DNA from: a virus | IMG/VR virus record: IMGVR_UViG_3300020020_000154 | Span: 1 to 24,441 of that record | Direction: 5' to 3' (one strand) | Length of the DNA: 24,441 nt | Shown here: positions 15,443-23,997 of the stretch, in pieces | How the letters are laid out: each line of letters begins with the position of its first letter | How positions within the stretch are numbered: the stretch's first letter is position 1 | The notes under the pieces: generated by a model | What the model saw: the letters and a program-made list of their open reading frames with translations, nothing else | What the model was told of the DNA's origin: nothing | The model's database searches: none | Translations under genes and position numbers: made by a program

Positions 15443-15841
15443 ATGGCAGGCCGGTATCTCCTCATCGAGTTCGATGATGAAGCCGCGGCGGAACGTCTAC
15501 GCGCGCAGATCAATCAAGCGACTCAAGCCGGCAAGAGGTTTCGCGTCGTAGGTTTTTTCTCACGACCCGGTCCCGATTTCTGCAAATGTGGAACATGGGT
15601 TACTGAACGAGGTCAACCCGCTACCACTAAGATCGGTCGCAAGTTCGGTTGGGTAGTCTGCACAGTATGCAAGAAACCTGCTCCGGTCATGAGCTTCCTC
15701 CGTAATCTACTCAAGCCAGTTGACATCATCGATCCCCCCCTATATAGTATAGGTAGGGCTGGTCACGCCCCTCAGCCAATGGGGTTTTATACTGTCGGCC
15801 TAAGTGCACCATCACTTGGTGCTGGAGGATTCGAGGAGTAA
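15443..15841 (+). CDS. Zinc-ribbon protein of unknown function, first early gene
   Basis: Encodes 132 residues. The N-terminal 40 residues form an alpha/beta unit beginning 'RYLLIEFDDEAAAERLRAQI'. Cys47-x-Cys49 and Cys73-x2-Cys76 (FCKCG, then VVCTVCKK) make a zinc-ribbon-like site. Similar proteins starting with 'YLLIEFDD...A..L' and carrying two Cys pairs appear in actinophages next to replication genes; no function is established. The final 50 residues are Pro/Gly-rich and probably flexible. Its coding sequence contains a second consensus promoter (15720-15748). The stop overlaps the next ATG (TAATG). Confidence 0.75.
   Translation: MAGRYLLIEFDDEAAAERLRAQINQATQAGKRFRVVGFFSRPGPDFCKCGTWVTERGQPATTKIGRKFGWVVCTVCKKPAPVMSFLRNLLKPVDIIDPPLYSIGRAGHAPQPMGFYTVGLSAPSLGAGGFEE
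15720..15748 (+). promoter_or_regulatory. Promoter embedded in the zinc-ribbon gene
   Basis: TTGACA (15720-15725), 17-base spacer with a run of seven C, TATAGT (15743-15748) inside TATATAGTAT, the same -10 decamer as at 15393-15402. It would give a start near 15755, about 86 bases before the glycosylase-like gene at 15841, bypassing the upstream gene. Confidence 0.55.
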
Positions 15842-16287
15842 TGCAGACATTTCTGCCATACAAAGACTTCCGACAAAGTGCTCGTGTACTGGACACTAAA
15901 CTGCTAAGCAAACAAAGAGTTGAAGTCATTCAGATCATGGCCGCTCTTGTCAAGTTGCAGGTCCATACCGACACAGCAAACATCGCCTGGGGCAATCATC
16001 CCGCTACGAAGATGTGGCGGGGACATGAGCAGCAACTTTTCGAATACCAGACGGCAATGTGCGAGGAATGGATTCGTCGAGGATACAAAGATACTTGTCT
16101 CGAGAAGACCTACCGCATGTTGATTCTCTTCGGCTTTGAGTTCGATGAATCTCCTCCCCCTTGGTTAGGGTTGAAGCGATTCCATTCGGCACATCGTGCA
16201 AATCTACTACACAAAGATCCCGAGCACTATGGTAAATATGGCTGGAAAGAAAAGCCTGAGGAAGGGTATTGGTGGCCAGTCGCATGA
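15841..16287 (+). CDS. Pyrimidine-dimer DNA glycosylase-like protein (Pyr_excise family)
   Basis: Encodes 148 residues, starting by TAATG overlap after GAGGAG. 'MQTFLPYKDFRQSARVLDTKLLSKQRVEVIQI' and 'NHPATKMWRGHEQQLFEYQTAMCEEWIRRGY', then 'FHSAHRANLLHKDPEHY', match the actinobacterial/phage family grouped with T4 endonuclease V (Pfam Pyr_excise). Shared features are the 'LD...L.KQR.E' helix, 'NHP...MW' and the 'HR..LL.KDP.HY' end. T4 DenV removes UV-induced pyrimidine dimers; whether this branch keeps that activity is not proven. Neighbours in DNA metabolism support a repair or base-removal role. Confidence 0.75.
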   Translation: MQTFLPYKDFRQSARVLDTKLLSKQRVEVIQIMAALVKLQVHTDTANIAWGNHPATKMWRGHEQQLFEYQTAMCEEWIRRGYKDTCLEKTYRMLILFGFEFDESPPPWLGLKRFHSAHRANLLHKDPEHYGKYGWKEKPEEGYWWPVA

Positions 16288-17825
16288 GCGGCGATAGTAT
16301 CTATAGGTATAAGAAACGTCCCTATCACCACCAAGTTGCAGCCCTGAAGAAGTTGCTGAAAAATGGCTGGGGTGGTGCTCTGCTGATGGAGCCCCGAACG
16401 GGTAAGACCAAGGTAGTCATCGACTACATGGCCATTCTCCATCAGTTTCATGGTGTCAATCGAGTTGTCGTGGTCGGCCCAGTTGTTGCGATTGAGGTGT
16501 GGAAAGAACAGCTCAAGGAGAACATGCCATACAAGTATCGGCTAACCATTTGGGATCGCAAGGGTCGTAGAAAAAATGAACTGCCTCGGTATGGTCAGGA
16601 CATTCTCGACATCGTATTGATCAATTACGATGCCTTTAGCGTACCAGGGGCCTTCCGTACTCATCGCAGTGGACCGCAGAAAGGTCAGTACATCACCGAC
16701 GCAGAAGGTAACAAACTTCGGTCAAAGTCGGTAGGAGGTCGATTTGCCATGAAGAAGCAATTCAAGGCATGGGGACCCCAGTTGATCGTACTCGATGAAA
16801 GCCACCGCATCAAATCTCCTAGTGCCAAGAAGTCAACGGCTCTTCATAGTCTTGGCCCTCTAGCCGACTACCGAGTTATCATGACCGGCACGGTAGTAAC
16901 CAAGAGCAAGCGACTTTTCGACATCTATAGTCAATGGGAATTTCTCAACCCTGATCGTTTCGCCGCGCTGACGTTCGGTGAATTCAAGCACCGCTATGGT
17001 CGATGGGTCAAAAAAGAGCGGTACGAGAAGTGGACCGGAGCTCGTAATGAGCGTCATCTCCACACCCAAATCCACAAGGATTCGTACAGCATCACTCGAG
17101 AGGAATGCTATGATCTTCCCAAGGTCACTCCGCAAATCATCCCCGTACCTTTGGAAGAATCTGCCGAACTCTACGACCAGATGGCAAATGACATGGTTGC
17201 TCGTATCCGAACTGGTGAGATCACTGAGGCCAGTATCAAGCTGGTCCAGACGCTTCGCCTACAGCAGATTACGTCGGGAATTACGAAGACATCGCCAACC
17301 AAAGAATACCCTAAAGGGCGGATCGTAGTCGTCGGTTCAGAAAAGCTTCGGATGATCGAATCCCGTCTCGAGGATCTCATGGAAGCTGACGAGAAGGTAG
17401 TTATCGGCGCACTCTTCAAGGCTGACATTGCTCGCTTGCTGGGTGTGGGAAAGAGGCTGGGAGTACCAACCTTCACCATTCATGGTGGGGTGAAGATGAA
17501 AGATCGAGGAGGTATACCTAATGAATTCAAACGGGTTTCAGGGGGAGCCATTTTCATCGGCCAACCAGCTGCGGGAGAGAGCATCGATCTTAGTTGTGCC
17601 AGCATCCTCCAATGGTACAGCCTCCCCTCAAGCTGGGTCAACTTCCGTCAATTCAGCGACCGCATTGCTCTTTCCGATAAGCCCACCTTCCACGAATTCT
17701 ACTTGGCCGCTGGAACGGTCGATTTCTTGAAGCATGAAACGCTGATGGAGGACGGTGACATTGGCAAGAAAATGATTCAATCTCCCGAGCGTCTGCTCAG
17801 GCTTGGAGTTCAATTGGAGGATTGA
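16284..17825 (+). CDS. SNF2/DEAD-like DNA helicase
   Basis: Encodes 513 residues from ATG 16284, overlapping the preceding stop (ATGA); an upstream in-frame TTG (16269) is less likely. An N-terminal Q-like motif (RPYHHQVAAL) is followed by Walker A 'MEPRTGKTK' (35-43), Walker B 'LDESH' (170-174), motif III 'MTGT' (200-203), and in the second RecA domain 'IGQPAAGESIDLSCA' with 'SSWVNFRQFSDRI' (about 425-462, motifs V-VI). This is the compact SNF2-family ATPase common in siphoviruses, a translocase that remodels or unwinds DNA in replication or recombination. Motif VI retains Arg residues for ATP sensing. It sits upstream of the dNMP kinase promoter. Confidence 0.9.
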   Translation: MSGDSIYRYKKRPYHHQVAALKKLLKNGWGGALLMEPRTGKTKVVIDYMAILHQFHGVNRVVVVGPVVAIEVWKEQLKENMPYKYRLTIWDRKGRRKNELPRYGQDILDIVLINYDAFSVPGAFRTHRSGPQKGQYITDAEGNKLRSKSVGGRFAMKKQFKAWGPQLIVLDESHRIKSPSAKKSTALHSLGPLADYRVIMTGTVVTKSKRLFDIYSQWEFLNPDRFAALTFGEFKHRYGRWVKKERYEKWTGARNERHLHTQIHKDSYSITREECYDLPKVTPQIIPVPLEESAELYDQMANDMVARIRTGEITEASIKLVQTLRLQQITSGITKTSPTKEYPKGRIVVVGSEKLRMIESRLEDLMEADEKVVIGALFKADIARLLGVGKRLGVPTFTIHGGVKMKDRGGIPNEFKRVSGGAIFIGQPAAGESIDLSCASILQWYSLPSSWVNFRQFSDRIALSDKPTFHEFYLAAGTVDFLKHETLMEDGDIGKKMIQSPERLLRLGVQLED

Positions 17826-17865: not shown

Positions 17866-18429
17866 ATGAAAGGCTACAAGGTGCTGATTGTAGAAGGTCC
17901 GGATGGAGCCGGTAAATCAACGCTCGTGAGGGAGCTCTCCGAATACCTCAAGATGCCCATCGCTCCGAGGGTGGTGACTCAACGTACAGAGGCGATGATC
18001 GATCTTCGTGACTGGGTCGACAACAATCTTGAAGAGGGCTTCCAGCGCACGATCTTCGATCGCTATCGCCTGATCAGCGAGACCATTTATGGGCCTATTC
18101 TGCGCGATCAGCAGCATCCCGGCTTCGACGACATCGCTTGGCTCGGTCCGCGATTGGCCAAGTTCTACGCGCTTGGGCCCATCATCATCTATTGTCTGCC
18201 AGAGTTCGAGGTGGTACGGGACAACCTCGAGAATGACGAGGACAACGAAGTCGTGCTGCCTCGGATCAAGTCGATTTACTCGGCATACATCAACCGCGCG
18301 GCCCTTGACTTCAACCTGGCTGGTTCCGAGGTCTATCTATACAACTACAAGATGCCTTTCTCCCAGGAAGAGAAGTACATCTGGTTCGATACCATCAACA
18401 AGCATATGCTCAGGAAGGCCGCAGCATGA
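17866..18429 (+). CDS. Thymidylate/deoxynucleoside monophosphate kinase-like protein
   Basis: Encodes 187 residues. 'LIVEGPDGAGKST' carries Walker A at residues 11-19, and 'IFDRYRLISE' (64-71, D65-R66-Y67) is the nucleotide-binding DRY motif of thymidylate kinases. 'IIIYCLPEFEVVRDNL' gives the next core strand. It would phosphorylate dTMP or another dNMP to the diphosphate using ATP. Codon use is more GC-rich than in the helicase before it. Its stop overlaps the next ATG (ATGA). In T4 the comparable kinase accepts hydroxymethyl-dCMP, so in this gene set the substrate could be a modified nucleotide; the sequence does not decide. Confidence 0.85.
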   Translation: MKGYKVLIVEGPDGAGKSTLVRELSEYLKMPIAPRVVTQRTEAMIDLRDWVDNNLEEGFQRTIFDRYRLISETIYGPILRDQQHPGFDDIAWLGPRLAKFYALGPIIIYCLPEFEVVRDNLENDEDNEVVLPRIKSIYSAYINRAALDFNLAGSEVYLYNYKMPFSQEEKYIWFDTINKHMLRKAAA

Positions 18430-19034
18430 CTGACCAGGAATCCGACTACATCGACCGTCTCGGTGAGATGTTCGAGCTGCAGGGCAATCTGCAGCGAGAG
18501 ACCTATGGATCACACCCCAGTGATATCATGGAGTTTCCTCTTGACGTAGAGGACGAGCAGTTTCCCCATCGGATCGAGTTCATCAAGGATATGCACATTG
18601 CTATCGGCGACGAACTGAGTGAGTTCATGGGAGAGATTGGTTGGAAGCCATGGGCAACCAGCCGTCACATCAACTTCGAGGCCGCACAGGGCGAACTGGT
18701 GGATGCCTTTCACTTTTTCATGAATCTCGCTATGGCAGTCGACATGACGCCAGAGATGCTCTATGAAAAGTACAAGGCCAAGCGACTCAAGAACATCAAG
18801 CGCCAAGAAGAGGGCTACGATGGAGTACATGGAAAGTGCCCGAACTGCAAACGGGCCCTTGATGATGAGGCGGTCAAGTGCCACACCGTCATGCCCGGGC
18901 CGAACGATAGCTGGCACCTCAAGCCTGGCGAACTAGCTGTTCAGTGTGAGGTCAATGGAGGTATCTATCGACTCAATGTCGCCAACACGGCTTGGTATCG
19001 GGTCAAGTCCTCCGCGATTGGAACTAAGTCGTGA
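18426..19034 (+). CDS. Dimeric dUTPase/dCTPase-like nucleotidohydrolase with C-terminal zinc ribbon
   Basis: Encodes 202 residues. The all-alpha NTP pyrophosphatase fold is indicated by 'GDELSEFMGEIGWKPW' (metal-binding E63, E66, E70) and 'QGELVDAFHFFMNLAMAVDMTPE' (E90, D93), followed by 'YKAKRLKNIKRQEEGYDG' (116-133), the basic motif of dimeric dUTPases. It would hydrolyse dUTP (or dCTP) to the monophosphate and pyrophosphate. Residues 138-174 add CPNC with Cys152 and Cys174, a zinc-ribbon-like tail not found in minimal family members. ATGA overlap upstream and GTGA overlap downstream place it in one operon with the kinase and thymidylate-synthase-like genes. Confidence 0.8.
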   Translation: MTDQESDYIDRLGEMFELQGNLQRETYGSHPSDIMEFPLDVEDEQFPHRIEFIKDMHIAIGDELSEFMGEIGWKPWATSRHINFEAAQGELVDAFHFFMNLAMAVDMTPEMLYEKYKAKRLKNIKRQEEGYDGVHGKCPNCKRALDDEAVKCHTVMPGPNDSWHLKPGELAVQCEVNGGIYRLNVANTAWYRVKSSAIGTKS

Positions 19035-20062
19035 GGACGTATCATGCGGCCACTATGACAGAGATGTACGATCAGCTCACGGACTCGCTTATCCATGCCA
19101 AGGAAGATGAACTCGATGTCATCTCTTCAGTAGATGTTCAGATTCATGACGTCATGGCACAGGCTGATTCGATGGTGTGGGACTTCGATTTCAAGTCGGC
19201 ATGGCTGACTAAGTCCCGCTGGTCCATGATGGTCAAGCAGTACATCGATCCCGAAGAATTGGAGGCCTGGATTGGCCAGTGTACAGGAAGAATTGGTCTT
19301 CGAGGCCGAGGGGTTGCGGTCTTGCGTACTAAGATCGTCAAACCCCGAGGCGGAGCCGCTACTGGTCACACAAACAAGGAAACGCGACGATGGGGATCGT
19401 GTATGCTTGGTATTAGTTACAAGGCTCTTCCTACTCCCCAAATCACTCTATACTCCCGTACATCGTACCTCGGGTATATTGGCGCGCTGGACCTCGGTGT
19501 TGCCTGGATGGTCGGACGTTATCTGGCCAAAGAACTTGGCGTGGACGTCAGCAAATTCCGATTCGTTTGGGTGAACCAAGCGATCCAGTGGCACAACTTC
19601 AAGTCACTTGCGTACATGCTGAATCATGTGAACCCAGTGCTTCGTAAGAAATACCGTCGGTTCCTGATTGAAGAATCCACTGAGTTGACCAAGGAAGAGA
19701 AAATCGAGGTAGTTCGTCACCCCGCGATCAAGCTCTCACGCAAGTGGCTTCGGAAGGTCATCAGCGAAGACACCGCAGGTCGAACCTATGGTGACATGAC
19801 CTACAACACGTTCCGTCGTATTGTTCGACGATTCCATACTGAAGTGTATGGAGAAGAGTATGCTAAGCAGTTTGAGGGGTGGAGCTTCTGGAAAAAGGGG
19901 CCCAAGCTTGGAGAACAAAAGGAATTCTTCAAGCGCTACCAGTTGCTGCCTTCAGTAAAAGTCGATAGCCTTGATTTTACTGCGATTGGTATGCCGATCT
20001 CGCGCTCATATGGTGAACCTTTCATCGGTGAGATGAATGACGACGATGATGATGATGAGTGA
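19031..20062 (+). CDS. Divergent thymidylate-synthase-superfamily protein (first of two)
   Basis: Encodes 343 residues from a GTG overlapping the previous stop (GTGA); ATG 19055 is an alternative start. The core resembles thymidylate synthase: 'WGSCMLGISY' puts Cys124 at the nucleophile position, 'ITLYSRTSYLGYIGALDLG' matches the phosphate-binding Arg strand (Arg143, 19 residues after Cys), and 'FRFVWVNQAIQWHNF' aligns with the strand that carries His/Tyr in ThyA. Asp154, 11 after Arg143, falls where dUMP enzymes have Asn. The usual catalytic-strand His is replaced by Gln in this alignment, so activity may be altered. The C-terminus ends MNDDDDDDE. It could be a hydroxymethylase, a partner subunit of the next gene product, or a non-catalytic paralogue. 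Confidence 0.7.
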   Translation: MRTYHAATMTEMYDQLTDSLIHAKEDELDVISSVDVQIHDVMAQADSMVWDFDFKSAWLTKSRWSMMVKQYIDPEELEAWIGQCTGRIGLRGRGVAVLRTKIVKPRGGAATGHTNKETRRWGSCMLGISYKALPTPQITLYSRTSYLGYIGALDLGVAWMVGRYLAKELGVDVSKFRFVWVNQAIQWHNFKSLAYMLNHVNPVLRKKYRRFLIEESTELTKEEKIEVVRHPAIKLSRKWLRKVISEDTAGRTYGDMTYNTFRRIVRRFHTEVYGEEYAKQFEGWSFWKKGPKLGEQKEFFKRYQLLPSVKVDSLDFTAIGMPISRSYGEPFIGEMNDDDDDDE

Positions 20063-20089: not shown

Positions 20090-20947
20090 ATGATAACCCT
20101 GAATGATGGCAAGCCAATCGTATTCAAAGCGGGATTTCTCGAGTTGCGTCGCCAGCTCAAGGAAGCCCCTAAAGTCGAAGTCGGCGAATGGCAGTCCCAG
20201 AAGATCGAGATGCCAATGCGTGAGCTACTGCATGTTGCCTTCGAGATGCACATCCCAGCAGACCAAGAGCATCTTGCTGAGATCACTGGGGCTCGTATGC
20301 CATGGGCTGAGGATCACTTCCTCGAGAGAGTGAGCGGGGACCCGCTGAATCCCAGCCCCAGCGAGGCCTGGTGGCCGTTCGCCAAGAAAGGCACTACGAC
20401 CAACGCCGATCACAAGTCTGAAGGCGAAGCATTCTCACACACCTATCCCGAGCGGATGTGGTCGAAGCAGGCCAACATGGATCATGTTCCTGAGCATGAG
20501 AGTGGTCCTCACTACGGGATTCGATTCGCCTATGGCGATCTTCGAGATGTCGTGAATCAGCTGGTTCGATCACCATACACTAGGCAGGCATACCTTCCGA
20601 TTTGGTTCCCTGAAGACACGGGTGCCGTTCATGGCAAGCGGGTTCCCTGCACACTCGGGTACCACTTCATCATCCGCGATGGCAAACTTGATATGTCGTA
20701 CTTCATGCGTTCGACTGATTTGCTCCGGCACTTCCAGGATGATGTCTACCTCGCAGGTCGACTCATGCAGTGGATGGTCGAGCAGATCCTGAGCCACCAG
20801 ATCATGGTGGGGTACAACTTCAACGACCCGCAGCCCGATCCCCTCCGAGTGGGCAATCTAATCTTCCACACCGCCAACATGCACATCTTCGACGGGGACA
20901 TCCCGATGATCGAGTTCTGGGAGCGAGAGGGCAAGACATGGTTCTGA
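20090..20947 (+). CDS. Thymidylate synthase/dCMP hydroxymethylase-like enzyme (second of two)
   Basis: Encodes 285 residues with AGGAGG (20077-20082) 7 bases upstream. Visible family features: 'YGIRF' (142-146), 'SPYTRQAYLPIWFPEDT' (the RR strand), the nucleophile in 'RVPC' (Cys187), 'FIIRDGKLDMSYFMRSTDLL' with Arg207 20 residues after Cys and Asp210, 'FQDDV' with Asp218, and 'FHTANMHIF' with His265. Spacing Cys to Arg (20) and Arg to Asp218 (11) equals that of E. coli ThyA (C146, R166, N177) and T4 dCMP hydroxymethylase (C148, R168, D179). Asp at this site is the dCMP-type residue. It would transfer a one-carbon unit from methylene-tetrahydrofolate to C5 of a pyrimidine nucleotide. The C-terminal tail after the His strand is short compared with ThyA. 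Confidence 0.85.
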   Translation: MITLNDGKPIVFKAGFLELRRQLKEAPKVEVGEWQSQKIEMPMRELLHVAFEMHIPADQEHLAEITGARMPWAEDHFLERVSGDPLNPSPSEAWWPFAKKGTTTNADHKSEGEAFSHTYPERMWSKQANMDHVPEHESGPHYGIRFAYGDLRDVVNQLVRSPYTRQAYLPIWFPEDTGAVHGKRVPCTLGYHFIIRDGKLDMSYFMRSTDLLRHFQDDVYLAGRLMQWMVEQILSHQIMVGYNFNDPQPDPLRVGNLIFHTANMHIFDGDIPMIEFWEREGKTWF

Positions 20948-21459
20948 GAATTACACGAGATATAATGCTGATGCAGATTGCATCAGTAGTCGCTAAGCGG
21001 GGAACCTGCAGCCGAGGTCAAGTCGGAGCGGTGGTCAGCCGAGATGCTCGAATCATCGCCACCGGGTATAACGGCGCTCCCTCAGGTCTACCCCATTGTG
21101 ACCACACTGCAGAACAGTTTCGATACGAGCTGGGTCACGAGGTGCTTGAGAACATTGAATGGTCGTCAGCACCGGGTCAGATAATGCAGATTCAACCTAC
21201 GGAGATCGTAGTTTCTGGTTGTCAGGTGGCCGTGCATGCTGAGCAGAATGCCATCGCATTCGCCGCCAAGTATGGTCTTGCACTCGAGGGTGGCGATCTG
21301 CATTGTACCCATGCACCATGCGCCAACTGTGCGCGTTCGATCATCAATGCTGGTATCAAGCGAGTGTTCTTCAAGATCCCTTACCGCCTGACTGAGGGTG
21401 TGGAATTGCTTGAACAGGCCGGGCTTGAGGTGTTTGACATGAGCGATGATGTCGGATAG
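20938..21459 (+). CDS. dCMP deaminase
   Basis: Encodes 173 residues. ATG 20938 has GAGAGG upstream and overlaps the end of the previous gene by 10 bases; ATG 20965 is a possible later start. Zinc-catalytic motifs are clear: 'HAE' at 100-102 and 'PCANC' at 127-131 (Cys128, Cys131). 'TGYNGAPSGLPHCDH' (42-56) is the deoxycytidylate-deaminase N-terminal signature, with Cys54/His56 possibly for a second zinc. It converts dCMP to dUMP, feeding dTMP synthesis, and is allosterically regulated by dCTP/dTTP in relatives. It directly follows the thymidylate-synthase-like genes. Its 3' end carries the promoter of the polymerase gene. Confidence 0.92.
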   Translation: MVLRITRDIMLMQIASVVAKRGTCSRGQVGAVVSRDARIIATGYNGAPSGLPHCDHTAEQFRYELGHEVLENIEWSSAPGQIMQIQPTEIVVSGCQVAVHAEQNAIAFAAKYGLALEGGDLHCTHAPCANCARSIINAGIKRVFFKIPYRLTEGVELLEQAGLEVFDMSDDVG

Positions 21460-21468: not shown

Positions 21469-23997
21469 ATGATATATGACCCGGATGAGCAATGTGACCA
21501 TTGCGGCGATCATGCAGTTTGGTCATTTGCTACTGGGCCTAAGAGTGCAAGGATAGCAGTTGTTACAAATCGGCGTGCGTCGGGTAAGTTCCTCGCCGGT
21601 TTGGAAGCGCAGCTCACTGAGCTAGGGCTAAATACCAGTGATATCTATTTCACTCCGGTCATCAAGTGCACAGACTTCGATACCTCGCTCACAACTAAGC
21701 AGCTGAAAGAGCATGCTGCTCAGTATTTGATTCCCGAGCTTGAGGAAATCGAACCTGAGTATATCCTGGCACTCGGCAATGAGTCACTACAGGTCATCGT
21801 CGGTAAGTCAGGCATCACAAAGTACCGAGGTAAGTTTTACGAAGCTCGTGGCGCGACAGTGATGTCGACTCTCTCACCGGCGGCAGTCAATCGTAATCCG
21901 GGCATGCTCAATGGATACATGGCTGATCTTCGACTCTTCGCCAACAAGGTGAGGGGCCGTGCTTCTGGCATTCCCGATCCAACGTATCTCACAGTAGATA
22001 CTAAGGAGAAGCTCAACAAAATGCTGAAGATCCTCGATATAACTGAGGAGATCTACATTGACATTGAGACCGATCGAGGGGAGTACTACAAAGATGAAGC
22101 AAACATGGTCAGCTTGGCCGCCACTTGTGTGGTTACCAGACCCGATGGCACAAAGGCTAGAGCAGTATTCGCCCTCCCGCTCTATCATCCTCAGTCGCCT
22201 TGGCGATCACGATGGCGTGAAGTCTTACGAATCATGGGCAAACACTGTACCAACATTGAGAAGGTTGTCGCACACAACAGTACCTTCGACTGCAAGTGGT
22301 TGATTTGGTCTGGAGTTAAACTCTATCCAACGTTTGATACAATGCTTGCGATCCATCTGCTAAATGAGAACGTGCAGAAGGGGCTAAAGCCCCAGGCAAT
22401 GGCACGACTCGGAGTTGAGGCATGGGGTATCGACACGGGTAGCCTACTGAATACGCCGCTTGAAGAAGTACTGCATTACAATGTTCTCGATACTTGGTAC
22501 ATGTTCTTTGTGAAGAAGCAACTGGTGGAGGAACTTGCCGAACAACCTCGACTGGCGCGCATCTTCGCATTCGAGACGATGCCGGCACAAAGAGACCTAA
22601 TCGACTCTGAGATCCGAGGCATTTGGATCGATATCCGACGACTGAAGGAACGCAAGCCGATTGCGGTACAGAAGCTAAAGGAAATTGAACAGCGGATTCG
22701 TGAGGCAGCCGAATTGCCTGAACCGGGCAGTGAACTTTGGCCCCACACCATTCGTCATCTAAAGACGATGGACAAGCGAATCGATCTGCTTGAGAACTTC
22801 AATGCCAGCAAGTTTGCACGATGGATGCTCTTCGAGTGGCTCGAGATGCCCGTGCTTGAACGAGGCAAGAAAAAGCAGGATGGCTCGCCCGGTGACCCTA
22901 GCATGGCTGAGGATGTCATCATGCAGCTGTATGAAGACACCAAACACCCTGCACTTCAGGGTATGCTTGATCGAGTAACTGCACAGAAGCACCTCTCCAG
23001 TTTCTTCAACCCCTACGAGGAGTTATACGATGAAGATCACCGAATCCATACAACTTTCAAGTTGGCCGGTACCGTCACGGGACGACTCTCTTCAGGAAAG
23101 GATGACCCAGATAAGATTAGCGGTTCTCGTGGTAAAGTCCGAGGCGTCAATCTTCAACAAGTGCCGCGCGATCCGTTTATTCGAGGACTGTTCGGCGCTC
23201 CCCCCGGCTGGACATTCGTAGAGGCTGACTACTCTCAAATCGAGCTCAGGGTAGCGGCGATGCTCGCTGATGAAACTACAATGAAGCACTTGTACTCTAT
23301 CGGCGCTGACATCCATCTTTCAACTGCAGCACGAGTTACAGGGCTTCCCGAGTCGGAAGTCACCAAGGAAATCCGCAAGGTAGTGGGCAAGCCCATCAAC
23401 TTCGGCTTTCTCTACGGTATGGGTTGGCGCAAGTTCATTCATACTGCATTCAGCAACTACGGTTCAGTATTCACTGAAGAAGAAGCACAAAACGCTCGCA
23501 AAGCATACTTCGAACTGTATCCAAAATTGCTCCCCTGGCATGCTCGACAGCGACGACTAGTCAATGAGTATGGTCGCGTCGTAAGTCCGCTAGGACGTAT
23601 CCGGCATCTCCCTGACATCTACTCACCCGATCAGGGGGTGCGCGCTGAAGCTGAACGACAGGCGATCAACTCTCCGGTACAGGGGTTCGCCTCCGACATG
23701 GCAGTCATCAGCATGATCGAAACGAACAGGTTGTTCAAGAAGTACAAGATTCAAGGTCACTGCCTTGGTCTGGTGCATGATGCGATTAACTATGAAGTAC
23801 GTGATGACCACCTGAAATCGGCACTGCCTATTCTCAAGGATACCATGGAGAACATGGATCTGGTGTACAAAAAGTTCGGTACAGTAGTCGACATTCCGAT
23901 CATTGCCGATGTCTCAGTCGGTCAGCACTGGGGTGACAAGAAAGAACTCACCCCCGAGCAGGTTTATAACTTTGAGTTGGAGTACAAGGGTGCCTAA
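21469..23997 (+). CDS. Family A DNA polymerase with uracil-glycosylase-like N-terminal domain
   Basis: Encodes 842 residues. Residues 1-165 resemble family-4/5 uracil-DNA glycosylase: CxxC (9, 12), 'LGLNTSDIYFTPVIKC' (Cys67), 'IEPEYILALGNES' and 'KYRGKF', but the usual catalytic motifs are altered (TNRRASG in place of GExPG; LSPAAVNR in place of HPSAxxR). The 3'-5' exonuclease follows, with D198-E200 (IDIET), D274 (HNSTFD) and Y337/D341 (YNVLD). The polymerase domain has motif A D587 (VEADYSQIELR), motif B K641, F645 and Y649 (KPINFGFLYG) and motif C 'VHDA' (D771). It is the replicative polymerase. No 5'-nuclease domain is present. It is probably translated from a leaderless message. Confidence 0.93.
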   Translation: MIYDPDEQCDHCGDHAVWSFATGPKSARIAVVTNRRASGKFLAGLEAQLTELGLNTSDIYFTPVIKCTDFDTSLTTKQLKEHAAQYLIPELEEIEPEYILALGNESLQVIVGKSGITKYRGKFYEARGATVMSTLSPAAVNRNPGMLNGYMADLRLFANKVRGRASGIPDPTYLTVDTKEKLNKMLKILDITEEIYIDIETDRGEYYKDEANMVSLAATCVVTRPDGTKARAVFALPLYHPQSPWRSRWREVLRIMGKHCTNIEKVVAHNSTFDCKWLIWSGVKLYPTFDTMLAIHLLNENVQKGLKPQAMARLGVEAWGIDTGSLLNTPLEEVLHYNVLDTWYMFFVKKQLVEELAEQPRLARIFAFETMPAQRDLIDSEIRGIWIDIRRLKERKPIAVQKLKEIEQRIREAAELPEPGSELWPHTIRHLKTMDKRIDLLENFNASKFARWMLFEWLEMPVLERGKKKQDGSPGDPSMAEDVIMQLYEDTKHPALQGMLDRVTAQKHLSSFFNPYEELYDEDHRIHTTFKLAGTVTGRLSSGKDDPDKISGSRGKVRGVNLQQVPRDPFIRGLFGAPPGWTFVEADYSQIELRVAAMLADETTMKHLYSIGADIHLSTAARVTGLPESEVTKEIRKVVGKPINFGFLYGMGWRKFIHTAFSNYGSVFTEEEAQNARKAYFELYPKLLPWHARQRRLVNEYGRVVSPLGRIRHLPDIYSPDQGVRAEAERQAINSPVQGFASDMAVISMIETNRLFKKYKIQGHCLGLVHDAINYEVRDDHLKSALPILKDTMENMDLVYKKFGTVVDIPIIADVSVGQHWGDKKELTPEQVYNFELEYKGA

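Follow-up and report, generated by a model that had tools for sequence, protein, structure and literature searches.

On which nucleotide does a phage enzyme act that is labelled thymidylate synthase but carries aspartate where ThyA has the base-selecting asparagine? The question is raised by a soil-phage fragment of 24.4 kb from IMG/VR (the window, 24,441 nucleotides), whose kin are the Microbacterium phages Huwbert and Triscuit and the Curtobacterium phage Shrew. Its initial 14 kb are tail genes, and beyond them a replication and nucleotide module on the + strand runs in the order SNF2-type helicase, P-loop kinase, gp56-like pyrophosphatase, a phrog_13667 protein (the partner), the enzyme in question (TS-D), dCMP deaminase and PolA. 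We think it likely that TS-D is a folate-dependent enzyme that takes dCMP and not dUMP, and that it puts a one-carbon unit onto C5 in a T4-like pathway with a TS-fold partner. The DNA of the phages that carry it, among them the therapy phage Muddy, probably contains chemically altered cytosine. An Asp-type thymidylate synthase in a phage is of an already known kind. What is new is the occurrence of the Asp across a whole separately branching clade, whose actinophage members go by the annotation thymidylate synthase, together with a TS-fold protein that accompanies this clade and had not been recognised.

Fold and catalytic residues of TS-D

The TS-D reading frame (20090..20947, + strand) runs from an ATG at 20090 to a TGA at 20945-20947 and encodes a predicted dCMP C5-modifying enzyme of 285 amino acids. 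It scores 25.9 bits against PF00303, above the curated cut-off of 24.3, and matches the thymidylate synthase family phrog_160 with an E of 8.5e-33. The first-pass annotation had placed Cys187 (codon 20648-20650), Arg207 (20708-20710) and Asp218 (20741-20743) at ThyA spacing, with Asp at the base-selecting site. The positions and the gaps of 20 and 11 residues, equal to those of C146/R166/N177 in ThyA, are borne out, and D218 is present in 124/124 complete clade relatives. The same holds for Cys187 and Arg207: of the 128 sequences collected, only two truncated ORFs, Huwbert's canonical ThyA and a degenerate paralogue (locus L043) depart from the pattern. An AF2 model of TS-D (pLDDT 88, built on a 63-sequence alignment) overlays on E. 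coli ThyA over ~219 residues at 2.7 Å with a Z of ~19, tied with AfhB (9iqu), and its top Foldseek match is the CMP hydroxymethylase MilA. Profile searches match MilA best, together with AfhB and T4 dCH. By its predicted fold and by the catalytic Cys and Arg at ThyA spacing, TS-D belongs to the TS superfamily. We considered a misalignment of Asp218, which is unlikely because spacing, invariance and fold agree.

In the tree TS-D forms a separate deep clade (support 100/99), so that orthology gives no ground for transferring the activity of T4 gp42 to it. Since T4 gp42, ThyA and AfhB all lie on very long branches, we claim no sister group. Some active-site positions differ from the references. 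The counterpart of ThyA Tyr209 (Tyr218 in T4 gp42) is Phe267, which counts against the proposed reading. The register is ambiguous at the counterpart of ThyA Glu58 and T4 Glu60, where TS-D has E74, which is Asp in some sequences, and an invariant E79 that does not fall into register. Y119 is conserved and preceded by His117-Thr118, in the counterpart region of the T4 Ser/Thr and Tyr at 94-96.

The cryptic partner and the nucleotide module

The gene directly upstream of TS-D (19031..20062, + strand) encodes a 343-residue protein that is filed under phrog_13667 as "unknown function". Only four columns of its alignment are invariant, Y71 (19241-19243), C124 (19400-19402), R143 (19457-19459) and D154 (19490-19492), held in 92-93/93 sequences with a truncated one as the lone exception. 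The Cys-Arg-Asp spacing is 19 and 11 and the Tyr-Cys distance 53, compared with 20, 11 and 52 in ThyA; it is by spacing that the Tyr is equated with the ThyA Tyr. On this alignment the four residues are read as the TS catalytic set with Asp. The AF2 model (pLDDT 92.7) has as its best structural match AfhB 9iqu (Z 16.0 over 186 residues, 3.8 Å), to which the partner is only 11-12% identical, followed by MilA (Z 15.1) and ThyA (Z ~12), and the partner matches thymidylate synthases and dCMP hydroxymethylases in BFVD. Using hhalign, C124, R143 and D154 fall into the register of the TS references with an E of 0.0014-0.0016 and a probability of only 16-18%. None of the 41 members of phrog_13667 has a Pfam match, and when the partner's profile was compared with that of TS-D alone, no significant match resulted. 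It is the model, together with the invariant residues, that reveals the TS fold, and on these two lines the partner is an unrecognised second TS-fold protein beside TS-D, one that the first-pass annotation had passed over. A folate site in it appears unlikely, because the pterin-Asp position holds Tyr or Glu (Y146 here) and because the model predicts only a short turn where ThyA has the Trp80 segment. A C-terminal helical extension (19733-19870), absent from AfhB, contains R263 and R267, conserved in at least 90% of sequences, and may make nucleic-acid or protein contacts.

The other genes of the module were assigned by domain and family matches, and all lie on the + strand. Its upstream end is the SNF2-type helicase (16269..17825; domain search and locus comparison), followed by a P-loop nucleotide kinase of thymidylate/dNMP-kinase-like type (17866..18429; phrog_761 thymidylate kinase, E 4e-17) and a T4 gp56-like dCTPase/dUTPase (18426..19034), an all-alpha, MazG-like NTP pyrophosphatase that matches PF08761 and, by BLASTP, T4 gp56 (E 5e-10), and whose C-terminal tail contains a Cys. 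Downstream of TS-D, the start of the dCMP deaminase gene (20938..21459; PF00383, E 3.7e-22; phrog_174, E 7.6e-51) overlaps the TS-D stop codon, and a domain match identifies a family A DNA polymerase (PolA, 21469..23997) with an N-terminal uracil-DNA-glycosylase-like domain and a 3'-5' exonuclease. The fused glycosylase-like domain might read modified bases. Upstream of the module, at 15841-16287, lies a pyrimidine-dimer DNA glycosylase, a T4 DenV-like repair enzyme (PF03013, E 7e-22).

With neighbour profiles seeded from this window's genes, the 74 distinct partner-bearing loci with full flanks have the deaminase adjacent in 73/74, PolA in 74/74, the kinase in 69/74 and the gp56-like enzyme in 58/74, and the module is missing around 29 distinct full-flank TS-D loci without the partner. 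The module also occurs in Pseudomonas phage PMBT14 and is therefore not restricted to actinophages. Two points weigh against reading the module as a modified-cytosine pathway. Phages with normal bases often have a dCMP deaminase and a kinase too, and within the 24-kb fragment no gene for a glycosyltransferase or another hypermodification enzyme could be recognised.

The partner itself always occurs with TS-D, in 78/78 non-truncated loci; the other two are cut by contig ends. Its relatives are found in 85 phage records, two of them Muddy (gp47/gp46) and FF47, in which they adjoin TS-D; a search of bacterial genomes found none. Moskry_65, the neighbour of a 5-hydroxy-dCMP synthase, was compared as a candidate homologue and is not one.

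What, then, might the partner do? It probably binds the same nucleotide as TS-D or the product of TS-D, and would either carry out a further, folate-free modification or serve as a partner subunit. Tentatively, it may be a folate-independent enzyme acting on the 5-substituted dCMP made by TS-D, which would yield an undescribed hypermodified cytosine in many actinophages, Muddy among them. Such an enzyme would reopen the Cys-C6 adduct and the exocyclic methylene, and then either add some nucleophile in place of water or oxidise the base. It is also conceivable, if doubtful, that TS-D and the partner form an obligate hetero-oligomer and are not enzymes in their own right. In thymidylate synthases the active site draws on two subunits, and such an assembly would fit the strict linkage and gene order of the 78 loci, as well as a locus (L043) with a third, Cys-less TS paralogue between partner and TS-D. 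The partner nevertheless retains its own catalytic residues, and TS-D keeps its own R165 and stands without a detectable partner at the 29 loci counted above. Because TS-D occurs without the partner and never the reverse, we slightly prefer the second, folate-free step over the hetero-oligomer. In L043 (4441-6762) the partner homologue is followed by the TS paralogue, in which Thr replaces the catalytic Cys and the 177 site holds Asn, and then by TS-D, an arrangement that suggests duplication and a non-catalytic TS subunit.

Chemistry and substrate of TS-D

TS-D keeps the pterin-binding Asp (D210; Asp171 in T4 gp42) and, as W95, the counterpart of Trp80/Trp82, both conserved in the alignment. 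Its motif is RS(T/C)D, whereas moskry_66, the Mosigvirus enzyme named 5-hydroxy-dCMP synthase (PMC13390438), has RSQN, and Tyr for the Trp; PDB titles for a protein identical to moskry_66 over the compared stretch read dCMP hydroxylase and flavin-dependent monooxygenase. Retention of D210 and W95, unlike in the Mosigvirus enzyme, favours folate-dependent one-carbon transfer by TS-D. With its TS fold and Cys/Arg/Asp set, TS-D thus resembles T4 gp42, but the signature of T4 hydroxymethylation, an Asp that activates water and precedes the Cys by three residues (PMC6400193), is replaced by Arg184 in 124/126 aligned TS-D sequences, which counts against that chemistry. Given Arg184 and a catalytic Glu that could not be placed, we do not file TS-D as a T4-type dCMP hydroxymethylase, though we propose that it works like one. 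The C-terminal tail that closes the ThyA active site for hydride transfer has no recognisable counterpart at the TS-D C-terminus. For this reason hydroxymethyl is favoured over methyl: hydroxymethyl-dCMP is the most likely product, and methyl-dCMP or another 5-adduct is possible.

In phages of the Xp12 type all cytosines are 5-methylcytosine, and TS-D could, as expected for such phages, reductively methylate dCMP to 5-methyl-dCMP. We regard this as improbable. It would suit the missing hydroxymethylase Asp, and in the account that PMC8670742 gives of Liu and Santi (1992) the Asn-to-Asp exchange alone makes ThyA a dCMP methylase; against it stand the lack of a recognisable closing tail and the nearest solved relatives by profile, MilA and AfhB, which are non-methylases. 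Less probable still is a flavin-dependent 5-hydroxy-dCMP synthase like Mosigvirus AfhB. Searches by structure and by profile place AfhB (9iqu/9iqc) among the best matches, at 20-21% identity, and TS-D shares with it the TS fold, a Pro-Cys-Thr motif and the Asp at the base site. TS-D retains, however, the folate residues that AfhB has lost (Asn and Tyr in moskry_66 and AfhB), and no arabinosyltransferase or other sugar-transfer genes were seen near it.

The preferred reading, folate-dependent modification of a cytosine nucleotide, draws its substrate from the base-selecting site. Asp179 marks the cytosine substrate of T4 dCMP hydroxymethylase (PMC6400193), and MilA, also cytosine-specific, has Asp186 at the same site (PMC5175136). 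In MetaGPA, Asp at 177 is associated with cytosine-modified metavirome contigs, and position 147 is a second associated site (PMC8670742). The residue after the TS-D Cys is Thr or Ser (188) across the clade and not the His147 of ThyA, so that neither mark of a canonical ThyA, Asn177 or His147, is found in the clade. Compared by description, the MetaGPA thymidylate synthases share both the Asp at 177 and the change at 147; their contigs often add a carbamoyltransferase (PMC8670742), and none was seen in this fragment. SPO1 gp29, a phage dUMP hydroxymethylase also of the TS superfamily, has Asn at this site, the uracil type. In Huwbert a canonical ThyA (Cys-His147, Asn177) lies directly after TS-D (L091:10795-11598), the only one in the loci examined, and is a natural control for the substrate reading. 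The earlier proposal of a cytosine-nucleotide substrate therefore gains support from the clade-wide Asp, the module genes and this separate Asn-type ThyA in a relative, that is, from sequence, models and gene context.

That TS-D is an ordinary thymidylate synthase for dTMP supply is very improbable. It is what the databases say, and the neighbouring dCMP deaminase makes dUMP, but Asp replaces Asn clade-wide and Huwbert encodes a ThyA of its own. The preference of MilA for ribose lies in Lys133 and Ala176, and K133R/A176S reverses it to dCMP (PMC5175136); the TS-D counterparts are R165 in all and S208 in 117/126 aligned sequences, the deoxy type. A MilA-like CMP hydroxymethylase acting on ribonucleotides, which the first-pass annotation had kept as an alternative, is accordingly disfavoured and hardly credible, even though MilA ranks first by profile and by Foldseek and shares the Cys and the Asp, because R165 and S208 replace K133 and A176 and the phage module is one of DNA-precursor metabolism. 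By these residue rules, dCMP is the expected substrate of TS-D.

Proposed pathway and distribution

By analogy with the T4 pathway (gp56 dCTPase, gp1 kinase, cd deaminase), which has its likeness in the gp56-like enzyme, kinase and deaminase of the TS-D operon, the gp56-like pyrophosphatase would drain dCTP to dCMP. In TS-D, Cys187 would attack C6 and Asp218 protonate N3, the one-carbon unit coming from methylene-tetrahydrofolate. The partner would then alter the product again or share in the catalysis. The kinase would raise the modified dCMP towards the triphosphate for incorporation by PolA, and the deaminase would turn surplus dCMP into dUMP for thymidine. The system differs from that of T4 in its extra cryptic TS-fold protein and its PolA-type polymerase, and no glucosyltransferase was seen.

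About 100 sequenced phages, mostly actinobacterial, carry a TS-D labelled "thymidylate synthase". The pair of TS-D and partner, the latter labelled "hypothetical", occurs in ~85 sequenced actinophages, including Muddy, and in one Pseudomonas phage. Nothing on the base composition of a carrier phage came to light in the literature searched, in which coverage of 2025 is incomplete. If the proposal is true, modified cytosine is present in carriers that include Mycobacterium phages which have been applied or investigated against M. abscessus and M. avium; it may shield their DNA against CRISPR and restriction and may also make it a target of modification-dependent nucleases. The partner would add a seemingly folate-free family to the TS superfamily, which has recently been the source of a flavin-dependent hydroxylase.

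TS-D genes without the partner (L041:5154-6720, L048:4810-6726 and similar) lie in other contexts, several on contigs over 200 kb, beside genes assigned by eye as phosphoesterase-like or IMP-dehydrogenase/GMP-reductase-like. Finally, the "deoxyuridylate hydroxymethyltransferase" of Pseudoxanthomonas phage PW916 (L178:1225-2043) has a Cys-Thr pair and carries Asp at the 177 site; going by these residues, its annotation may be wrong and the enzyme of the cytosine type instead.
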